Positions 24,320 through 34,499 of a DNA stretch of 62,915 nt are shown one piece after another; within the stretch, counting starts at the first letter, position 1; every line of letters starts with the position of its first letter. The notes under the pieces are model-generated. The model made no database searches and was not told where the DNA came from. It was given only the letters and a program-made list of their open reading frames with translations. The translations under genes and the position numbers were made by a program. The stretch is taken from positions 996-63,910 of the forward strand of contig NZ_JAUNSF010000006.1 in NCBI RefSeq assembly GCF_030539355.1, read 5' to 3'. This stretch comes from Sutterella sp. GTDB taxonomy: Bacteria; Pseudomonadota; Gammaproteobacteria; Burkholderiales; Burkholderiaceae_F.

Positions 24320-25552
24320 ATGCAGCCTGACAGCATCCCGCGCCGCGGTCTCACCTTCGCCGCGGCCACGCTCTCCATCCTCCTCGCCTTCGGCGCCTCG
24401 GCGCTTCCCGTGCCGCTCATGGGGCTCTGGACGGCGGAGTTCGGTCTCGACACCGCCGAAGTCGGCATGACGGTGATCGCCTATGTCGTCGGCTGTTTCC
24501 TTACGTTGCTGACGCTCGCGCGCCTCTCCGAGGCGGTCGGCCGCCGCATGGCGGTGATGATCTCGGCGGCCCTCGGCTGCGCGGCGACGCTCTGCTTCCT
24601 CTTCGCCGACTCGGCCGTGCTCCTCATGATCGGGCGGCTGCTTCAGGGCTTTGCCTGCGGACTCGTCAGCACGGCCGCGATGAGCTGGGCCGTCGACAGC
24701 GCGCCCGACCGCGCGCCCTGGCTCGGCACTGCTGTGAGCGCCGCCGGACCGCTCACGGGCTTCATCATCGCCACGGTCGCGGGAGGCGCGCTCCTCTCGG
24801 GCGGCCTCGCCGGCCCGGTCGGCATCTTCGCGGGGCTTCTCGTGATTCAGGTGCTCTCGGCCGCACTTGTTCTCGCCGCCTCGGAGACGCTTCCCGCCCG
24901 CGGCTTCGGCGGGTTCCTGCGGCCCGGCTTCATTCCGCCTGCCGGGAGCGGCAGAAAACTCTTGCTCGCAGGCGTCGGACTCGTCAGCACCAACGCGCTC
25001 ACCTGCTTCTTCCAGGGGTTCTCCGCGCGCGTTGCGCTTGAGCTCTGGGGCGCGGACGCGCCGGTTGCGATGCTCGCGAGCGTCGTCTATCTCGCGCTCA
25101 TCGTCCCCAACGCCGCCGCAGGGTTCGCCGTCTCGAAGTTCAATCCCCTCAGGTTCTACCTTCCGCTCGGGATTCTCTACGCCGTCACGGGAAGCCTCGC
25201 CTTTCTCGCGATCGCGGAAACCTGCGCCGCGGGTTTCCTCATCTCCGTGATGATCTGCGGCATCGCGCAGGGCGGCCTCAACGCGTTCTCGCTCAAGATC
25301 CTGCTCGCGGGCTCAAGGATCGAGGAACGCGCGCGGCTCCTCGCCGCGGTCTACCTCGTGAGCTACCTCGGCACCGGCATCCCGAACCTCGTCATCATGA
25401 GCTTCGGGCGGGATGCAGACTTCACGATGATCGCGCTCGGGTTCGCCGGCTGGTTCGCGATGACACTGATTGCGATCTGTTTTTCTCTAGCCCGCGTTCG
25501 GCGCGAAGCGACAGCTCACGGTGAGGCTCTGCGCACCTGCCCGTCCGCCTAG
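24320..25552 (+). CDS. MFS transporter (efflux-type)
   Basis: This major facilitator protein has 410 residues and about 12 membrane helices. The motif between helices 2 and 3 is LARLSEAVGRRMAVMISAAL, a variant of motif A in which the usual GxLaDrxGrr is altered. The AraC regulator directly upstream suggests inducible export, perhaps of a drug or sugar-like compound; the substrate cannot be inferred. Its TAG stop lies in a CTAG tetramer that also encodes the stop of the convergent ArgJ-like gene, so no terminator separates them. Confidence 0.88.
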   Translation: MQPDSIPRRGLTFAAATLSILLAFGASALPVPLMGLWTAEFGLDTAEVGMTVIAYVVGCFLTLLTLARLSEAVGRRMAVMISAALGCAATLCFLFADSAVLLMIGRLLQGFACGLVSTAAMSWAVDSAPDRAPWLGTAVSAAGPLTGFIIATVAGGALLSGGLAGPVGIFAGLLVIQVLSAALVLAASETLPARGFGGFLRPGFIPPAGSGRKLLLAGVGLVSTNALTCFFQGFSARVALELWGADAPVAMLASVVYLALIVPNAAAGFAVSKFNPLRFYLPLGILYAVTGSLAFLAIAETCAAGFLISVMICGIAQGGLNAFSLKILLAGSRIEERARLLAAVYLVSYLGTGIPNLVIMSFGRDADFTMIALGFAGWFAMTLIAICFSLARVRREATAHGEALRTCPSA

Positions 25553-26676
25553 GCCCGGACGCGGAAGACGCCGCCCGAGCGGCCACGGCCGAGCTCAACG
25601 CGGAGCGGCTTGCCGCCCGCGAGCCAGGCCGCGACGGCTTCCGGCGAGAGCTTTCCCGCCGGGCGCATGCCCGTGAGGAAGACCTCGTCGCCCACCATCG
25701 CCCGCACAGGCGTACGCTCGAGTCCCACGGCCTCCGAGGTGAGGAGCGCCGCCCAGATGCGGTCGGAGAGCGTCTCCGCGGCGTTCTCCGCGCCCTCGAT
25801 CTCCGAGCGGACGCCGGCGAGCGCCTGCGCGAGGCGCGCCATCATGAGCGCGCCCTCGGCGGGGCTTTCCGTCCCCTCGAGCTGTACCGCGAGAGTTCCC
25901 CTTGCAGCGGTGCGTCGCGCGAGCTGCTCGAGCGCAATCCGCATGCCCGCCTGCAGGGGCTCGAGTCGCGGATCCTCCACGGAATCGATCTCGAGGAGCC
26001 CGTGCGTGCCGAGCGCGAGCACGATAAGCGCGTCCCCGGGCGCAGGGCCTTCGCAGGCGCGCTCCGCCGCGGGGCCGGCGAGCCAGAGCGCCTCGATGAG
26101 CCACTCAAGCACGGGGCGGGTCACCGCGGCGTTCGTGGCGACGATCCACACGCGCGAGCCGAAACGCGGCGCGGTGAGCGACCCCGCGCCGATCTCCACC
26201 GGGCCCTCGCCCGTGAAGAAGGGCACGCCCACGAACTCGCATCCCGCGCCCGCGGGCGCCGCCTTTTCCTCGGCCGCGAGCGCCGCCTTCAGGTCCTCCC
26301 AGCGCGCCGCCATCGGCGCGTGAACCATCGCGGGGCCGGCCGCGGCGGTGACGAGGTTCGTCTCCGCCACCGAGAGCAGCTCCGCGGCGCCGTGCCGGAA
26401 ACCCTCCGCGGCGCCCGTCGAGACCGGGCCCATGCCCGTCATGCCTTCGGAGAGCGTGACCACGAGCCGCGTGCAGATCGTGCGCTCGCGGTCGCCCGCG
26501 GCCTGCGTGAGGAGCAGTGGCATCCCGTCCTCGGCGACAACGCCCTGGCCGAGGCCCGCCCTCGCGGTCCGGGCGGTCCAGGTCGCGGTCGCGGGGAGGA
26601 AAGCAATGTGCGCCTTGCCCGAGGGCGCCGAGCGCCAGACGAGGCCGCTCACGTTGAAGTCCTGGGAAAAGCGCAT
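25549..26676 (-). CDS. ArgJ-like protein lacking key catalytic residues
   Basis: It sits at the conserved argJ position after secA and resembles glutamate N-acetyltransferase ArgJ throughout: an STG oxyanion-type motif (86-88), IVATNAAVTRPVLEWLIEAL (178-197, matching the ArgJ block after the cleavage site), EIDSVEDPRLEPLQAGM and LSDRIWAALL. Yet the KGAGM segment reads EIGAGSL, with Ile162 at the Lys position, and the invariant A-T cleavage dipeptide aligns with Gly173-Ser174. The NTGNAN segment is replaced by LLTQAAGDR, and the protein ends early without the SINADYR-type tail. It has 375 residues against about 405. The start at 26676 follows AAGGAA. It may be a divergent Ser-nucleophile enzyme or a decaying gene with another role. 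Confidence 0.7.
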   Translation of the reverse strand: MRFSQDFNVSGLVWRSAPSGKAHIAFLPATATWTARTARAGLGQGVVAEDGMPLLLTQAAGDRERTICTRLVVTLSEGMTGMGPVSTGAAEGFRHGAAELLSVAETNLVTAAAGPAMVHAPMAARWEDLKAALAAEEKAAPAGAGCEFVGVPFFTGEGPVEIGAGSLTAPRFGSRVWIVATNAAVTRPVLEWLIEALWLAGPAAERACEGPAPGDALIVLALGTHGLLEIDSVEDPRLEPLQAGMRIALEQLARRTAARGTLAVQLEGTESPAEGALMMARLAQALAGVRSEIEGAENAAETLSDRIWAALLTSEAVGLERTPVRAMVGDEVFLTGMRPAGKLSPEAVAAWLAGGKPLRVELGRGRSGGVFRVRA

Positions 26677-26704
26677 GGGAGTTTCCTTTTGGGAAGGAGA
26701 AGAA

Positions 26705-26762
26705 AAAACTTCGCCCGGCCGCCGATGCATTTCTTTTCGAAAGCACACCGGAAAAGCCGGGC
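26705..26762 (-). terminator. secA terminator
   Basis: Read on the minus strand, GCCCGGC (26756-26762) pairs with GCCGGGC (26713-26719). The loop can itself form a CTTTTC/GAAAAG stem, and GAAGTTTTTTC follows. It ends secA transcription before the ArgJ-like gene. Confidence 0.7.
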
Positions 26763-26816: not shown

Positions 26817-29534
<2,718 letters not shown>

Positions 29535-29886: not shown

Positions 29887-32298
29887 GTGCCGAAACTGCG
29901 CAGACTTCCCGCCGACTTCGAGATCCGCAGCCGGGGCTTCCGCTCCCCGCAGGCCTCGCTCAAGGGCGGCGAGCGCACCGAGGACCTCATCGCGTCCTAC
30001 GAGCTCGCCTGCCGCGCCGGCCGATCGATCCAGCCGATCGTGCGATCGATGGGCCTGCCCCTGGACTTCTCGAACGGGACGGGCGTGAGAATCGAGCAGA
30101 ACCAGGTGGTGCTCGTGCTTGAGAGCGCCGCGGTCCAGACGCGCCTCAAGAACCTTCAGAACCGGCTCCTCGAGAAACTCGTCGCCGACGGCGTTCCCGT
30201 CACGGGCATCAACTTCCGCGTGCGCGGCCGCCGGCGCCCCGTCGAGGAGGAGGAGAAGCCCGAGCCCGTGCGCACGCCGTCGATCATCGCGGCGGCTGAG
30301 CTGCACAATGCCGCGAAGAGCCTCATGAACCGCGATCTCGGCGCCCAGATCGAGGCCCTCGCGCGAACGCTCGAGCCCTCGGAGGGCGAGCTCCCCTTCT
30401 GCGTGCTGCAGTCTGCGGGCTCGCAGCGCGAGCGCTTGACGCGCCTCGGCGCCCTCGCCCGCGCCATCACGGAGAAGCTCCCGAATGCGCCCGGCATGAA
30501 CCTCATTCCCTCGGAGGAGAGGACCCGGGGGAACCCGGAGTTCGCGGCGGTCCGCGAGCGCATGCTTGCCCGCCTCGCGCGCCGTCAGGAGGCCGAGGCA
30601 GCCGCGGACGCGGCGACCTCCGCCATGAAGACGCTCACCGCGCGGCTCGACGACCTCGAGGCCCGCGTGCTTGCCGAGGAGACGGGCCTGCCCGAGAACT
30701 TCCGCCCGCTCGCCGACGAGGTGATCGCCCTCTCGAAGGACATCACCGTCGCGATCCGCGCGGCCGAGGAGTCGATCCGCGTGCTCGACGACCGCGCCGC
30801 GGAGGCCGAGCTTGAGAAGGCGAGAAAGAAGAAGGTGAAGACGGAGTCGACCTCGGCCGAGGCCGACGAGGAGGTCGCGACCGCACTCTCCGAGACGGGC
30901 ACGGCCTCGCCCGCGGCGGCGGCGCTCCGCGCCAACCTGCGCGACCAGACGCCGGCGCTGAAGAAATCCGTCCGCTCGGCCCGCGAGCTCATCGCGAAGG
31001 CGCTCAAAAGGCTCCCCTCTCCCGAGGAGACGCCCGAGCACGACGAGCGGCTTGCCGCGGAGCTCGCCCGCTTCGCCGCGCTCACCGCACGCGGCACGCG
31101 GCGCGGCGCCGCCGACCAGCAGGAGGCAATCAAGAACGCGCTCACCCCGGAGAGCACCCGCAGGCTCCTCGTCTGGGAGGAGCGGCAGGCAATCGAGGAC
31201 CGGCTCCACGAGATTGACGACGGATTCGCGGCGATGGAGAAGGCGCTCGACGACGACCGCGCCGTGCTCCGGATCCCGAGGAAGTTCACCGCGAGCGCGC
31301 TCGCCGCGGACTTCGCGGCGCTCAAATCAGTTGACGCGCGCCGCACGGCCGACATGGAGCGCCTCGGCGTCGAGTCCGCCGAGTCGGAGACCCTCGCCGA
31401 GGCCGTGGAGATCCTTGCCGAGGCCGCGGCCCACGGCGAGAGCGCCGCAAATCTCAGCCAGCGCGAGATCGGACAGAAGCGCGCCGCCGATGAACTGAAG
31501 AAGTTCCTGCGAGAGGTGCGCGTCGCGCTCGGGAGCCACCCGAACGAGCTGATCATCCCGAGCGAGGAGGAGGCCGCGGTCTCCAAAGAGGAGGCAGGGC
31601 TCCGCGAACGGCTCCTCGCCCGCCTCGCCGTCTGGAAGGAAAAGGAAGCCGCGCTCGCCGAGGCCGAGACCGCGCTCGCCAACGTCCGCAAGGTTCTTCA
31701 GTCTCCCCGCGACGGGGCCGTCCCGGGCACGGAGCTCGACGGCCGCGAGAAGGCGCTCCGCCATGCGTTCGCCCTCGCCGCGGCTGCAGCGGAGAAGATC
31801 TCTCCGGCGCTCACGGCTCCCGACTTTGACAAGGCCTCGGCCGAGGAGCTCCCCGGCGTAGTCCCGGATCTGAATGCCGGGAAGCCCGCAGGTCACGGAA
31901 AGGCCGCCGGGGCCCCGTCCGCTGCCCAGCCGTCGCTCTTCCCCGAGACCGTGCCGGTCGGGGACCTTGACGACCACACGGTCGAGCTTCTCGAGGCCAC
32001 CCGCGACATCCTTCCCGTCTGGGAGGACCGGCTGCCGAAGAAGCCCGTCCCCGAACTCATTCCGCCCGAGGAGGACTGCGTCAATGACGAGACGCTCCGT
32101 CTCGCGCGCACCCGCATGCTCGCCCGCGGCGAGCGCCGGGCCGCCCTGGAGGCGCGCCTCAGAGCCATTGACGAGGAGCTCAGGGCGGTTGAGGCTTTGC
32201 GCCACAATCCGTTGAGGAACCCCGCCGAGGTTGCCCGGCGCGCGAAGGCCGTGCTTGAGGAGGCCGACAGGTTCTCCGCGGATCTCGCGAAGAAGTGA
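29887..32298 (+). CDS. DciA/DUF721-like protein fused to four large helical repeats
   Basis: Residues about 30-115 match the DUF721/DciA fold, with LIASYELACRAGRSIQPIV, the strand VRIEQNQVVLVLESAAVQTR, LLEKLVADGVPVTGINFRVR. DciA supports loading or activity of the replicative helicase DnaB, and its gene commonly lies near lpxC and secA, as here. Ordinary DciA has 100-180 residues; this protein has 803. Residues about 168-803 contain repeating units of about 172 residues. Each has a helical lead-in, an L(I)P-x-EE element (205, 376, 554 and 723), a basic helix such as LRERMLARLARRQEAEAA and a long helical tail; the fourth unit is truncated. An in-frame TAA directly precedes the GTG start. The extension has no membrane segment or signal. 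Its function is unknown; a scaffold role at replication forks is speculation. Confidence 0.75.
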   Translation: MPKLRRLPADFEIRSRGFRSPQASLKGGERTEDLIASYELACRAGRSIQPIVRSMGLPLDFSNGTGVRIEQNQVVLVLESAAVQTRLKNLQNRLLEKLVADGVPVTGINFRVRGRRRPVEEEEKPEPVRTPSIIAAAELHNAAKSLMNRDLGAQIEALARTLEPSEGELPFCVLQSAGSQRERLTRLGALARAITEKLPNAPGMNLIPSEERTRGNPEFAAVRERMLARLARRQEAEAAADAATSAMKTLTARLDDLEARVLAEETGLPENFRPLADEVIALSKDITVAIRAAEESIRVLDDRAAEAELEKARKKKVKTESTSAEADEEVATALSETGTASPAAAALRANLRDQTPALKKSVRSARELIAKALKRLPSPEETPEHDERLAAELARFAALTARGTRRGAADQQEAIKNALTPESTRRLLVWEERQAIEDRLHEIDDGFAAMEKALDDDRAVLRIPRKFTASALAADFAALKSVDARRTADMERLGVESAESETLAEAVEILAEAAAHGESAANLSQREIGQKRAADELKKFLREVRVALGSHPNELIIPSEEEAAVSKEEAGLRERLLARLAVWKEKEAALAEAETALANVRKVLQSPRDGAVPGTELDGREKALRHAFALAAAAAEKISPALTAPDFDKASAEELPGVVPDLNAGKPAGHGKAAGAPSAAQPSLFPETVPVGDLDDHTVELLEATRDILPVWEDRLPKKPVPELIPPEEDCVNDETLRLARTRMLARGERRAALEARLRAIDEELRAVEALRHNPLRNPAEVARRAKAVLEEADRFSADLAKK
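30388..32295 (+). repeat. Four protein-level tandem repeats in the DciA-like fusion
   Basis: Marker elements NLIPSEE (205), LPSPEE (376), LIIPSEE (555) and LIPPEED (724) recur at intervals of about 171, 178 and 169 residues. Each is followed within 12-20 residues by an R/E-rich helix (RERMLARLARR, AELARFAALTARG, RERLLARLAVW, RTRMLARGERR). Preceding lead-ins also align. The DNA is diverged, so this is an old internal duplication. Confidence 0.7.
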
Positions 32299-32301
32299 CC
32301 G

Positions 32302-33363
32302 TCAGCCGTCGGTCAAGGTATAGAAGGTCCCCTTGCCGACGCCGTGCCGGGCGAGTCTTCCGGACTCGACCAGTTTCCTCAGGTGTTTGCCCAGCGTGAT
32401 GCGGCTCGCCCCCGTCTTCCTCACGAGATCGGCCATCCTGAAGCTTCGTACTTCGCGGGCGAGCATCAGGATCCGGAACGAGAGCTGCGGCACGTCCGAG
32501 AGCAACCAGTCTCCGTCCTCGATCCGTTTCTCAAGCCGCTGGGTCTCCCACCTGAGCACGTCAAGGAAGAACCTGAGCCAGTGCTCCCACTGCGGCTCCT
32601 CCGAACCGAGTGTCGTCTGTGTCCTCCTGAGGGAGAGGTAGTAGCCCCGCCTGCGCGTCTCCATCCCGCGCTCGAGCGACGCATAAGCGACGAACCCGTA
32701 GCCGCTTTTGAGCAGCAACAATGTGGTGAGCGCCCGGGCGAGACGGCCGTTGCCGTCCGCGAACGGATGAATCGCAAGGTACGCGGCAGCGAACATGCCG
32801 ATCGCGACGAGCGGATGCACCATGGGGTCCTCCGCCTGCCTGTGATACCACTCGAGGAGCTCCCGCATCAGCGCGGGCGTCTCGTCGGCCGGGGCGGTCC
32901 TCAGAACGACCCCGAGGCAGCGGCCCTCCGCATCAAACGCGGCGACGCTGTTGTCGACCGTCTTCCAGCGGCCCCGATGTGCGGCGTCCGCTTCCCCGTG
33001 CCCCGTGAGGATCGCATGCAGTTTGAGGACGGTCTCCTCGGTGACCGGCATGGCTCCCCAAGAGCCGAGGATTTTCTCCATGACCTCGGCGCAGCCGATC
33101 ACGTCCGCCTCGTCGGGCGAGAGGCACGGGCGGTCCGGGGCGGCGAGCACCTTCGCGACCTGCCGCTCGTCGAGCGCACTGCCTTCGATGCGCGTGGAGG
33201 CCGTGACGCTCTCAAGGAACGCCGTGCGCCTGAGCGCTGCGAAGCGCGCTGAAGCAGACGACTCACGCACCTTCCAGGCGCCCTTGAACTCATCGATCTC
33301 GCCGATGAGCCGGACGAGGTCCCCGGAGAATTTCATGCGGGTCGTGTCGAGACTGATCTTCAT
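32302..33363 (-). CDS. Fic domain protein (class II, self-inhibited type) with winged helix
   Basis: This is a Fic-family enzyme that probably transfers AMP from ATP to a protein hydroxyl group. The active motif HPFADGNGRLAR is complete at residues 199-210, with catalytic His199. An N-terminal inhibitory helix carries the S-x-x-x-E-G motif (S56-TRI-E60-G61), typical of class II enzymes held inactive by the Glu. The C-terminus (about 300-353) resembles a winged helix (DLVRKTGASRITLGKHLRKL), suggesting DNA binding and self-regulation. It has 353 residues. The gene lies between lpxC and the DciA-like fusion, ending 3 bases from the end of the latter. No separate antitoxin gene is seen. Confidence 0.93.
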   Translation of the reverse strand: MKISLDTTRMKFSGDLVRLIGEIDEFKGAWKVRESSASARFAALRRTAFLESVTASTRIEGSALDERQVAKVLAAPDRPCLSPDEADVIGCAEVMEKILGSWGAMPVTEETVLKLHAILTGHGEADAAHRGRWKTVDNSVAAFDAEGRCLGVVLRTAPADETPALMRELLEWYHRQAEDPMVHPLVAIGMFAAAYLAIHPFADGNGRLARALTTLLLLKSGYGFVAYASLERGMETRRRGYYLSLRRTQTTLGSEEPQWEHWLRFFLDVLRWETQRLEKRIEDGDWLLSDVPQLSFRILMLAREVRSFRMADLVRKTGASRITLGKHLRKLVESGRLARHGVGKGTFYTLTDG

Positions 33364-33548: not shown

Positions 33549-34499
33549 TCACCGGAAGATCGGGTCCTTCAGGTCGTCGTCGTTCGCGTACTGGACCGCG
33601 GGCTGCGGCCAGAAGTCGACGGGGCAGTCCTTCGCGTGCTCGAAGGTCACCTCCTCCCAGGCGTCGGGCTCGGAGAGGAGTTTCCTCAGCAGCTGGTTGT
33701 TGAGCCCGTGGCCGGACTTCTCGGCGACGTAGTGCGCGAGAAGCGGGTGCCCGAGCACATAGAGGTCGCCCATCGCGTCGAGGATCTTGTGCTTCACGAA
33801 CTCGCCGGACTCGCGCAGGCCGCCCGGGTTGAGCACGCGGAACTCGTCCATCACGATCGCGTTCTCGAGCGACCCGCCCTGGGCGAGGCCGATGCGGCGG
33901 AGCATCTCCACGTCCTGCACGAAGCCGAAGGTGCGGCAGCGCGCCACGCTCTGCTCGTAGTTGACCTTGGAGAAGTCGATGTCGGCCGTCTGGTCGGTCG
34001 CGTCGATCGCGGGATGTCCGAAGGCGATGCGGAAGGAGAGGCGGAAGCCCTCGTGGGGCTCGAGCCGCGCGAGCTTGTCGCCCTCGCGGACCTCGATCGG
34101 GCGCTTGATGCGCACGAACTTCCTCGGCGCGTCCTGCTCGACGAGTCCCGCGCTGTGAATGAGGTACGCGAAGCTCGTCCCCGAACCGTCCATGATCGGG
34201 ATCTCGGGGGCGTTCACCTCGACGATGCAGTTGTCGACGCCCAAGCCGCTGAAGGCGCTCATCAGGTGCTCGATCGTCGCGACGGCCGCGCGCCCGATGT
34301 TCACCGTGGTCGCCATGCGGGTGTCGTTCACATTGAGCGGCTGCGCCGGGATGTCCACCGCCGGGGAAAGGTCCACGCGGCGGTAGAGAATGCCCGTGTT
34401 CACGGGCGCCGGACGGAGCACGAGACGGACCTTGCGGCCGCTGTGCAGTCCGATGCCCACTGCGGCGACGGATTCGCCGAGCGTTCGCTGACAGAACAT
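33549..34499 (-). CDS. lpxC: UDP-3-O-acyl-N-acetylglucosamine deacetylase
   Basis: LpxC is the committed zinc-dependent step of lipid A synthesis. The N-terminus [21 protein letters not shown] is typical. Zinc and catalytic residues lie in [33 protein letters not shown] and GHGLNNQLL. It has 316 residues, slightly longer than the E. coli enzyme, with a C-terminal tail of about 30 residues. It follows ftsZ by 17 bases, the standard end of the division cluster. No classic terminator is seen before the fic promoter region. Confidence 0.97.

Follow-up and report, generated by a model that had tools for sequence, protein, structure and literature searches.

A genus-restricted C-terminal arm with a repeated module on the DciA protein of Sutterella

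A single open frame in a 62,915-nucleotide stretch of Sutterella sp. DNA (the window) encodes a protein that synteny and profile comparison identify as the DciA of the lpxC-secA locus, and this protein continues, past an intact copy of the tail with which studied DciAs bind DnaB, into a long arm carrying copies of a repeated module. Among the genomes searched the arm is restricted to one genus, its modules appear to have been gained stepwise, and it is under purifying selection. DciA is the helicase loader described for most bacteria. We tentatively favor the view that the Sutterella protein is a normal DciA loader with a helix-prone, multivalent docking arm; the docking, its valency, and its partner are the parts of this view that we infer.

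The locus and the DciA core

The protein, designated P0001, is read from a GTG start codon with the sequence AGAAGGA about 10 bases 5' of it. In the window, the neighbors of dciA are the divergently transcribed secA, a Fic-domain gene, lpxC, ftsZ, and ftsA; Table 1 gives the positions of secA and lpxC together with those of the parts of dciA. The Fic-domain gene (32302-33363, minus strand; Pfam Fic, 8.2e-16; PADLOC SoFic, 3.8e-40) separates dciA from lpxC, and when used as a query it found no match in 11 related loci, 10 of which span the whole dciA-lpxC interval. Beyond secA lies a 399-aa ORF (25549-26748, minus strand) for which Pfam gave no direct match; when five homologs were aligned, three of them proved to match ArgJ (best values of 9.5e-4 for PF01960 and 1.7e-4 for NF003802), and the window copy, which does not, looks like a strongly diverged ArgJ.

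Table 1. Features of the dciA locus; all coordinates are window positions, and residues are those of P0001
Feature	Residues	Position	Strand	Basis
Extended dciA gene (803 aa; starts with GTG)	1-803	29887..32298	+	open frame
DciA core: predicted KH-like DUF721 domain, linker, tail	1-166	29887..30384	+	profile and PDB-sequence matches
C-terminal tail segment, L151-x3-I155-x2-L158	132-166	30280..30384	+	A1 alignment, 8a3v_C match
Genus-specific arm	167-803	30385..32295	+	without counterpart in other genera; dN/dS 0.183 (G007/G004)
Module copy 1	about 191-260	30457..30666	+	module model
Helix-prone conserved stretch, unsupported as module copy	376-454	31012..31248	+	model and profile comparison
Module copy 2 (third unit of the earlier note)	about 543-610	31513..31716	+	model and profile-profile comparison
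Module copy 3 (fourth unit of the earlier note)	about 713-771	32023..32199	+	model and profile-profile comparison
secA, divergent locus-marking neighbor		26817..29534	-	family match, synteny
lpxC, neighbor on the opposite side from secA		33549..34499	-	family match, synteny

The Pfam DciA model matched P0001 weakly, over residues 67-109 (E 0.027; 15.1 bits, with a cut-off of 24), and its cut-off was not reached by any of the 12 genomes of the genus or the 67 of the family; at E ≤ 1, some match was obtained in 10 of the 12 genus genomes, 9 of these at the secA locus. We regard the identity of the protein as settled by several lines of evidence: (i) the ORF has the place between lpxC and secA that dciA keeps in betaproteobacteria, adjoining secA in all 12 genus genomes and having the lpxC side in 11, the contig of the remaining genome (G004) stopping before lpxC; (ii) a genus model, made from residues 1-200 of each of the 12 genus proteins, found an ORF upstream of secA and on the opposite strand in 37 of 47 loci elsewhere in the family, these 47 coming from the 50 non-genus genomes in which secA was matched, less G070, G079, and G082, where the match was at the end of a contig; (iii) an extended model, to which the proteins so found were added, located DciA at 67 of 80 named secA loci, including two from Sutterella, and within alignment A1 there are PF05258 matches (E ≤ 0.01) for 50 of the 57 members, P0001 being one of those without; and (iv) the profile of A1 matches the Vibrio cholerae DciA chain of the DnaB-DciA crystal (PDB 8a3v, chain 8a3v_C) over profile positions 18-160, with an E value of 8.3e-9. 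A1 is a 57-row alignment headed by P0001, from which five tail-less DciA rows were excluded; 22 of its members also match the flagellar hook family PF02120. The match to 8a3v_C takes in both the KH-like domain and the tail, and it is on this sequence match that the predicted KH-like fold of the core rests. Ten loci gave no DciA match upstream of secA with the genus model (L075, L077, L079, L081, L083, L085, L086, L088, L099, and L100); L081 and L085 are short contig ends, and the others may carry very diverged DciAs.

The boundary of the core is set by comparison with other genera. In 63 of 65 non-Sutterella loci, the ORF stops no more than 9 residues past the last profile-matched position, the exceptions with longer ends being L150 (26 residues) and L196 (66 residues). 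P0001 retains the tail of the A1 alignment, including L151, whose column is nearly invariant (90% or more), I155, and L158. Since the tail is kept and the ORFs of other genera end there, the arm begins just past the DnaB-binding element, at about residue 167. This tail is the counterpart of the hairpin through which studied DciAs bind DnaB: in V. cholerae, the tail is a helix hairpin on the LH-DH module of DnaB (PMC9912922), and in Caulobacter crescentus, leucines 163, 167, and 170 are required for DnaB binding (PMC9825169), with the same i, i+4, i+7 spacing as L151, I155, and L158 of P0001. Arg106 and Leu119 are reported as the residues of Caulobacter DciA for single-stranded DNA binding. At five of the 63 loci (L201, L205, L206, L208, and L209), short DciA frames end at profile positions 108-114 and appear to be without the DnaB-binding tail.

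An earlier note on this DNA, made from the sequence alone, had proposed a DciA/DUF721 protein at its usual place near lpxC and secA, and synteny, the extended profile, and the crystal-chain match bear this out; the DUF721 domain itself is hardly visible to Pfam and becomes clear with the A1 profile. The note had confined the DciA part to the first 115 residues, which is too short by about 50, as the core reaches about residue 166 with the DnaB-binding tail inside it. What it described as a giant extension of the remaining 690 residues is indeed a helix-prone C-terminal extension, with a length of 637 residues.

There is one DnaB gene in each of the 12 genus genomes. DciA and DnaC/DnaI are described as mutually exclusive (PMC9912922). 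In one alternative reading, DnaB is loaded by some other factor, perhaps a DnaC-like ATPase, and the protein is no longer a loader. Matches to IstB/DnaC-like ATPases (E ≤ 1e-5) do occur in 9 of the 12 genus genomes, two of them in the window's own genome. At the same threshold none was found in G010, G011, or G007, the last a single-contig genome, so DciA is likely to be the loader at least in G007; moreover, the core is the most constrained part of the protein (dN/dS, 0.085 and 0.11 in two genome pairs) and the tail pattern is kept, which makes replacement of the loader highly improbable. A co-change in DnaB was also sought at the presumed Ser/Gly site of the DH helix, where Ser marks DciA-type DnaB; Sutterella has Ala (nine genomes) or Lys (three genomes) there. 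The site proved uninformative since it varies across the family, with E in 12, T in 4, A in 3, Q in 2, and S, G, N, and D in one each of 25 readable DnaBs.

The repeated module and its spread in the genus

In a scan of the whole protein, a module model built from seven relatives, with the four longest proteins left out, found copies in P0001 at residues 194-255 (46.9 bits), 546-597 (26.7 bits), and 713-769 (24.4 bits), compared with maxima of 10.0 bits in 2,000 full shuffles of residues 263-803 and 6.5 bits in 2,000 local shuffles. Profile-profile comparison of units cut from four long proteins gave E values of 5.5e-9 for unit 1 versus unit 3, 1.5e-13 for unit 1 versus unit 4, and 1.8e-6 for unit 3 versus unit 4, the similarity spanning 73-77 columns. 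By these sequence statistics, the module is about 75 residues long and occurs securely three times in P0001. The second unit (residues 376-454) is not supported as a module copy: it scores 6.9-7.5 bits at residues 432-454, within the shuffle range, and its profile-profile E values with the other units are only 0.025-0.16.

The earlier note had seen four diverged units of about 172 residues each. The presence of repeats above shuffled sequence is confirmed (26.7 and 24.4 bits versus a best shuffle of 10.0), as is the position, to within one residue, of the L(I)P-x-EE elements that it had put at 205, 376, 554, and 723 and that we find at 206, 376, 555, and 724; three of its units survive, the second does not, and four equal repeats of 172 residues are replaced by the three shorter copies.

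The consensus of the module is LP-x2-PD-x2-LIPSEE-x-AA-x2-P-x-LA-x2-R-x-RMLAR, and its layout comprises a helix-prone stretch, the LP-x2-PD-x2-LIPSEE loop, and a basic R-x-R-ML-x-R stretch leading into a coiled-coil-like segment. One Pro and two Arg are invariant across 20 module copies. Neither the arm, searched against Pfam, NCBIfam, PHROGs, PADLOC, and PDB sequences, gave a convincing match, nor did the module show likeness to anything of known function in the libraries scanned. The best candidates were set aside: (i) a Jun bZIP helix for the module in the PDB, at chance level (E 0.05); (ii) an engineered protein for the arm in the PDB by phmmer, not believed (E 0.0077); and (iii) an arabinose isomerase domain in Pfam, obtained with a single one of the 20 copies and likewise not believed (E 0.0042).

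A further explanation is that the arm supplies additional elements for docking on DnaB, by which the hexamer would be gripped multivalently. It draws on G010 (L009), whose protein has, after its module, a second tail-like segment at residues 286-320 scoring 17.7 bits with a genus tail model (shuffle maximum, 10.7). With a tail model of 103 sequences, however, the same segment scores 10.8 bits, under the shuffle maximum of 13.1, P0001 has no significant second tail copy, and profile comparison does not support the modules as copies of the tail (E of 0.05; score of 10.7 versus a shuffled-column maximum of 14.6). We therefore hold extra docking elements to be very unlikely; the second tail copy of G010 may be a different kind of addition.

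With P0001 as the query, the 12 genus genomes were matched and none of 49 others. A 20-copy module model, which includes the copies of P0001 itself, found the module at dciA in every one of the 12 Sutterella genomes and in none of 55 other family genomes (E ≤ 1e-3); further Sutterella matches had E values of 0.018 or worse, and the best in the 55 other genomes was 0.0037. In a set of 300 genomes from the order, strong matches came from two Sutterella genomes, and four genomes of other genera gave E values of 5e-4 to 7.5e-3, which were taken as chance. On these searches the arm appears confined to Sutterella, and in this sense the extension is as unusual as had been supposed from the sequence. 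G002 gave a weak match (E 2.7e-4), which is in a different frame, directly after the stop of its dciA frame (L033, 7978-8492, 171 aa); sequence errors are likely in this record, because its ftsQ is also in pieces, three of them, overlapping.

DciA length varies widely within the genus, and so does copy number, with three copies in G000, G007, G004, and G008, two in G006 and G011, and one in the remaining six genomes. In a SecA-FtsZ-LpxC tree, the three-copy genomes group together, as do those with at least two copies (FastTree support of 1.0 each), and both groups were recovered when the tree was rooted with 11 family outgroups. The rooted tree and the copy counts make 0, 1, 2, 3 the simplest history, and the data fit a stepwise rise in module number. 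DciAs are usually short: in the survey of named secA loci, 53 of 67 stop-to-stop DciA frames are of 200 aa or less. A survey of Pseudomonadota gave a DciA match at E ≤ 1e-5 in 319 of 398 genomes; among the matches listed, eight frames have at least 311 aa, seven of them with the excess upstream of the domain and 60-70 aa after the match, and G497, with 124 aa after its DciA match, has a modest extension.

Selection on the arm and its possible role

Simple counting estimates of dN/dS in two genome pairs gave 0.085 for the core and 0.183 for the arm in G007/G004, and 0.11 and 0.161, respectively, in G001/G009. The arm is thus coding and under purifying selection, and it is less constrained than the core. 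Between G000 and G007, identity is 38.8% in the arm versus 61.2% in the core. The arm is rich in helix-favoring residues and highly charged, with 98 K+R and 116 D+E in 637 aa, and its value in a home-made heptad score, which is not a structure prediction, exceeds those of 298 of 300 shuffles.

These properties can be set against a reading in which the arm is a tolerated spacer: dciA would have lost its stop and run into the gap before lpxC, and a helix-prone tail that arose de novo would have grown by duplication with little function of its own. The restriction of the arm to one genus among the genomes searched, its want of a homolog in the libraries scanned, and its variable length would all suit such an origin, and a loose spacer would show the same faster evolution relative to the core. 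On the other hand, dN/dS stays well below 1 along the arm (0.078-0.343 across 80-codon windows in G007/G004; the pair of windows that covers residues 407-566 has 0.114 and 0.078), the invariant Pro and Arg residues persist through all 20 module copies, and at least one module is kept in each of the 12 genomes, weakly in G002. We consider a mere spacer unlikely.

An autoregulatory arm, folding back on the KH domain, the tail, or DnaB to control the loading or release of DciA, seems to us similarly improbable. Such a role would draw on the start of the arm right after the DnaB-binding tail, which makes it adjoin that surface, and on its helix-prone and charged nature, but it would need neither repeated copies nor stepwise growth.

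A tethering or docking role fits best, because the arm lies beyond the DnaB-bound hairpin, contains a conserved repeated module, and grew stepwise. In this model, which we hold tentatively, residues 1-166 most likely function as they do in DciAs generally, with the KH-like domain handling single-stranded DNA and the tail hairpin sitting on the LH-DH surface of DnaB and promoting loading. As the arm would have grown out of the end of the hairpin, every DciA on DnaB would extend a helix-rich tether, whose one to three modules may bind one another or a partner in the replisome or nucleoid, with the effect that DnaB-DciA would be concentrated or anchored. The scaffold at replication initiation or at the fork that the earlier note had in mind is possible. 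A bolder version, in which an essential loader acquired a de novo multivalent arm and became self-scaffolded, anchoring or clustering DnaB at replisomes or on the nucleoid, is conceivable, though we are rather doubtful of it.

Variation in N- and C-terminal extensions is known among DciAs, and the survey of Blaine et al. 2022, as described in PMC9865707, distinguishes four groups by extension length. The V. cholerae protein in the crystal is a chain of 163 residues, whereas the Sutterella protein adds 637 residues past the tail; in Caulobacter crescentus, by contrast, the functional extra extension (PMC12547741) is N-terminal and not past the tail. A full-text literature search found no paper with both Sutterella and DciA, and a clustering or anchoring mode of a loader was not found described in the literature searched, although Blaine et al. 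2022 may list such proteins.

To conclude, the DciAs of Sutterella form a natural series in which an otherwise standard loader bears one, two, or three copies of an orphan module, with none in sister genera. Such a series can be used to ask how a core replication protein gains a new domain, and whether the valency or tethering of a loader alters helicase loading.
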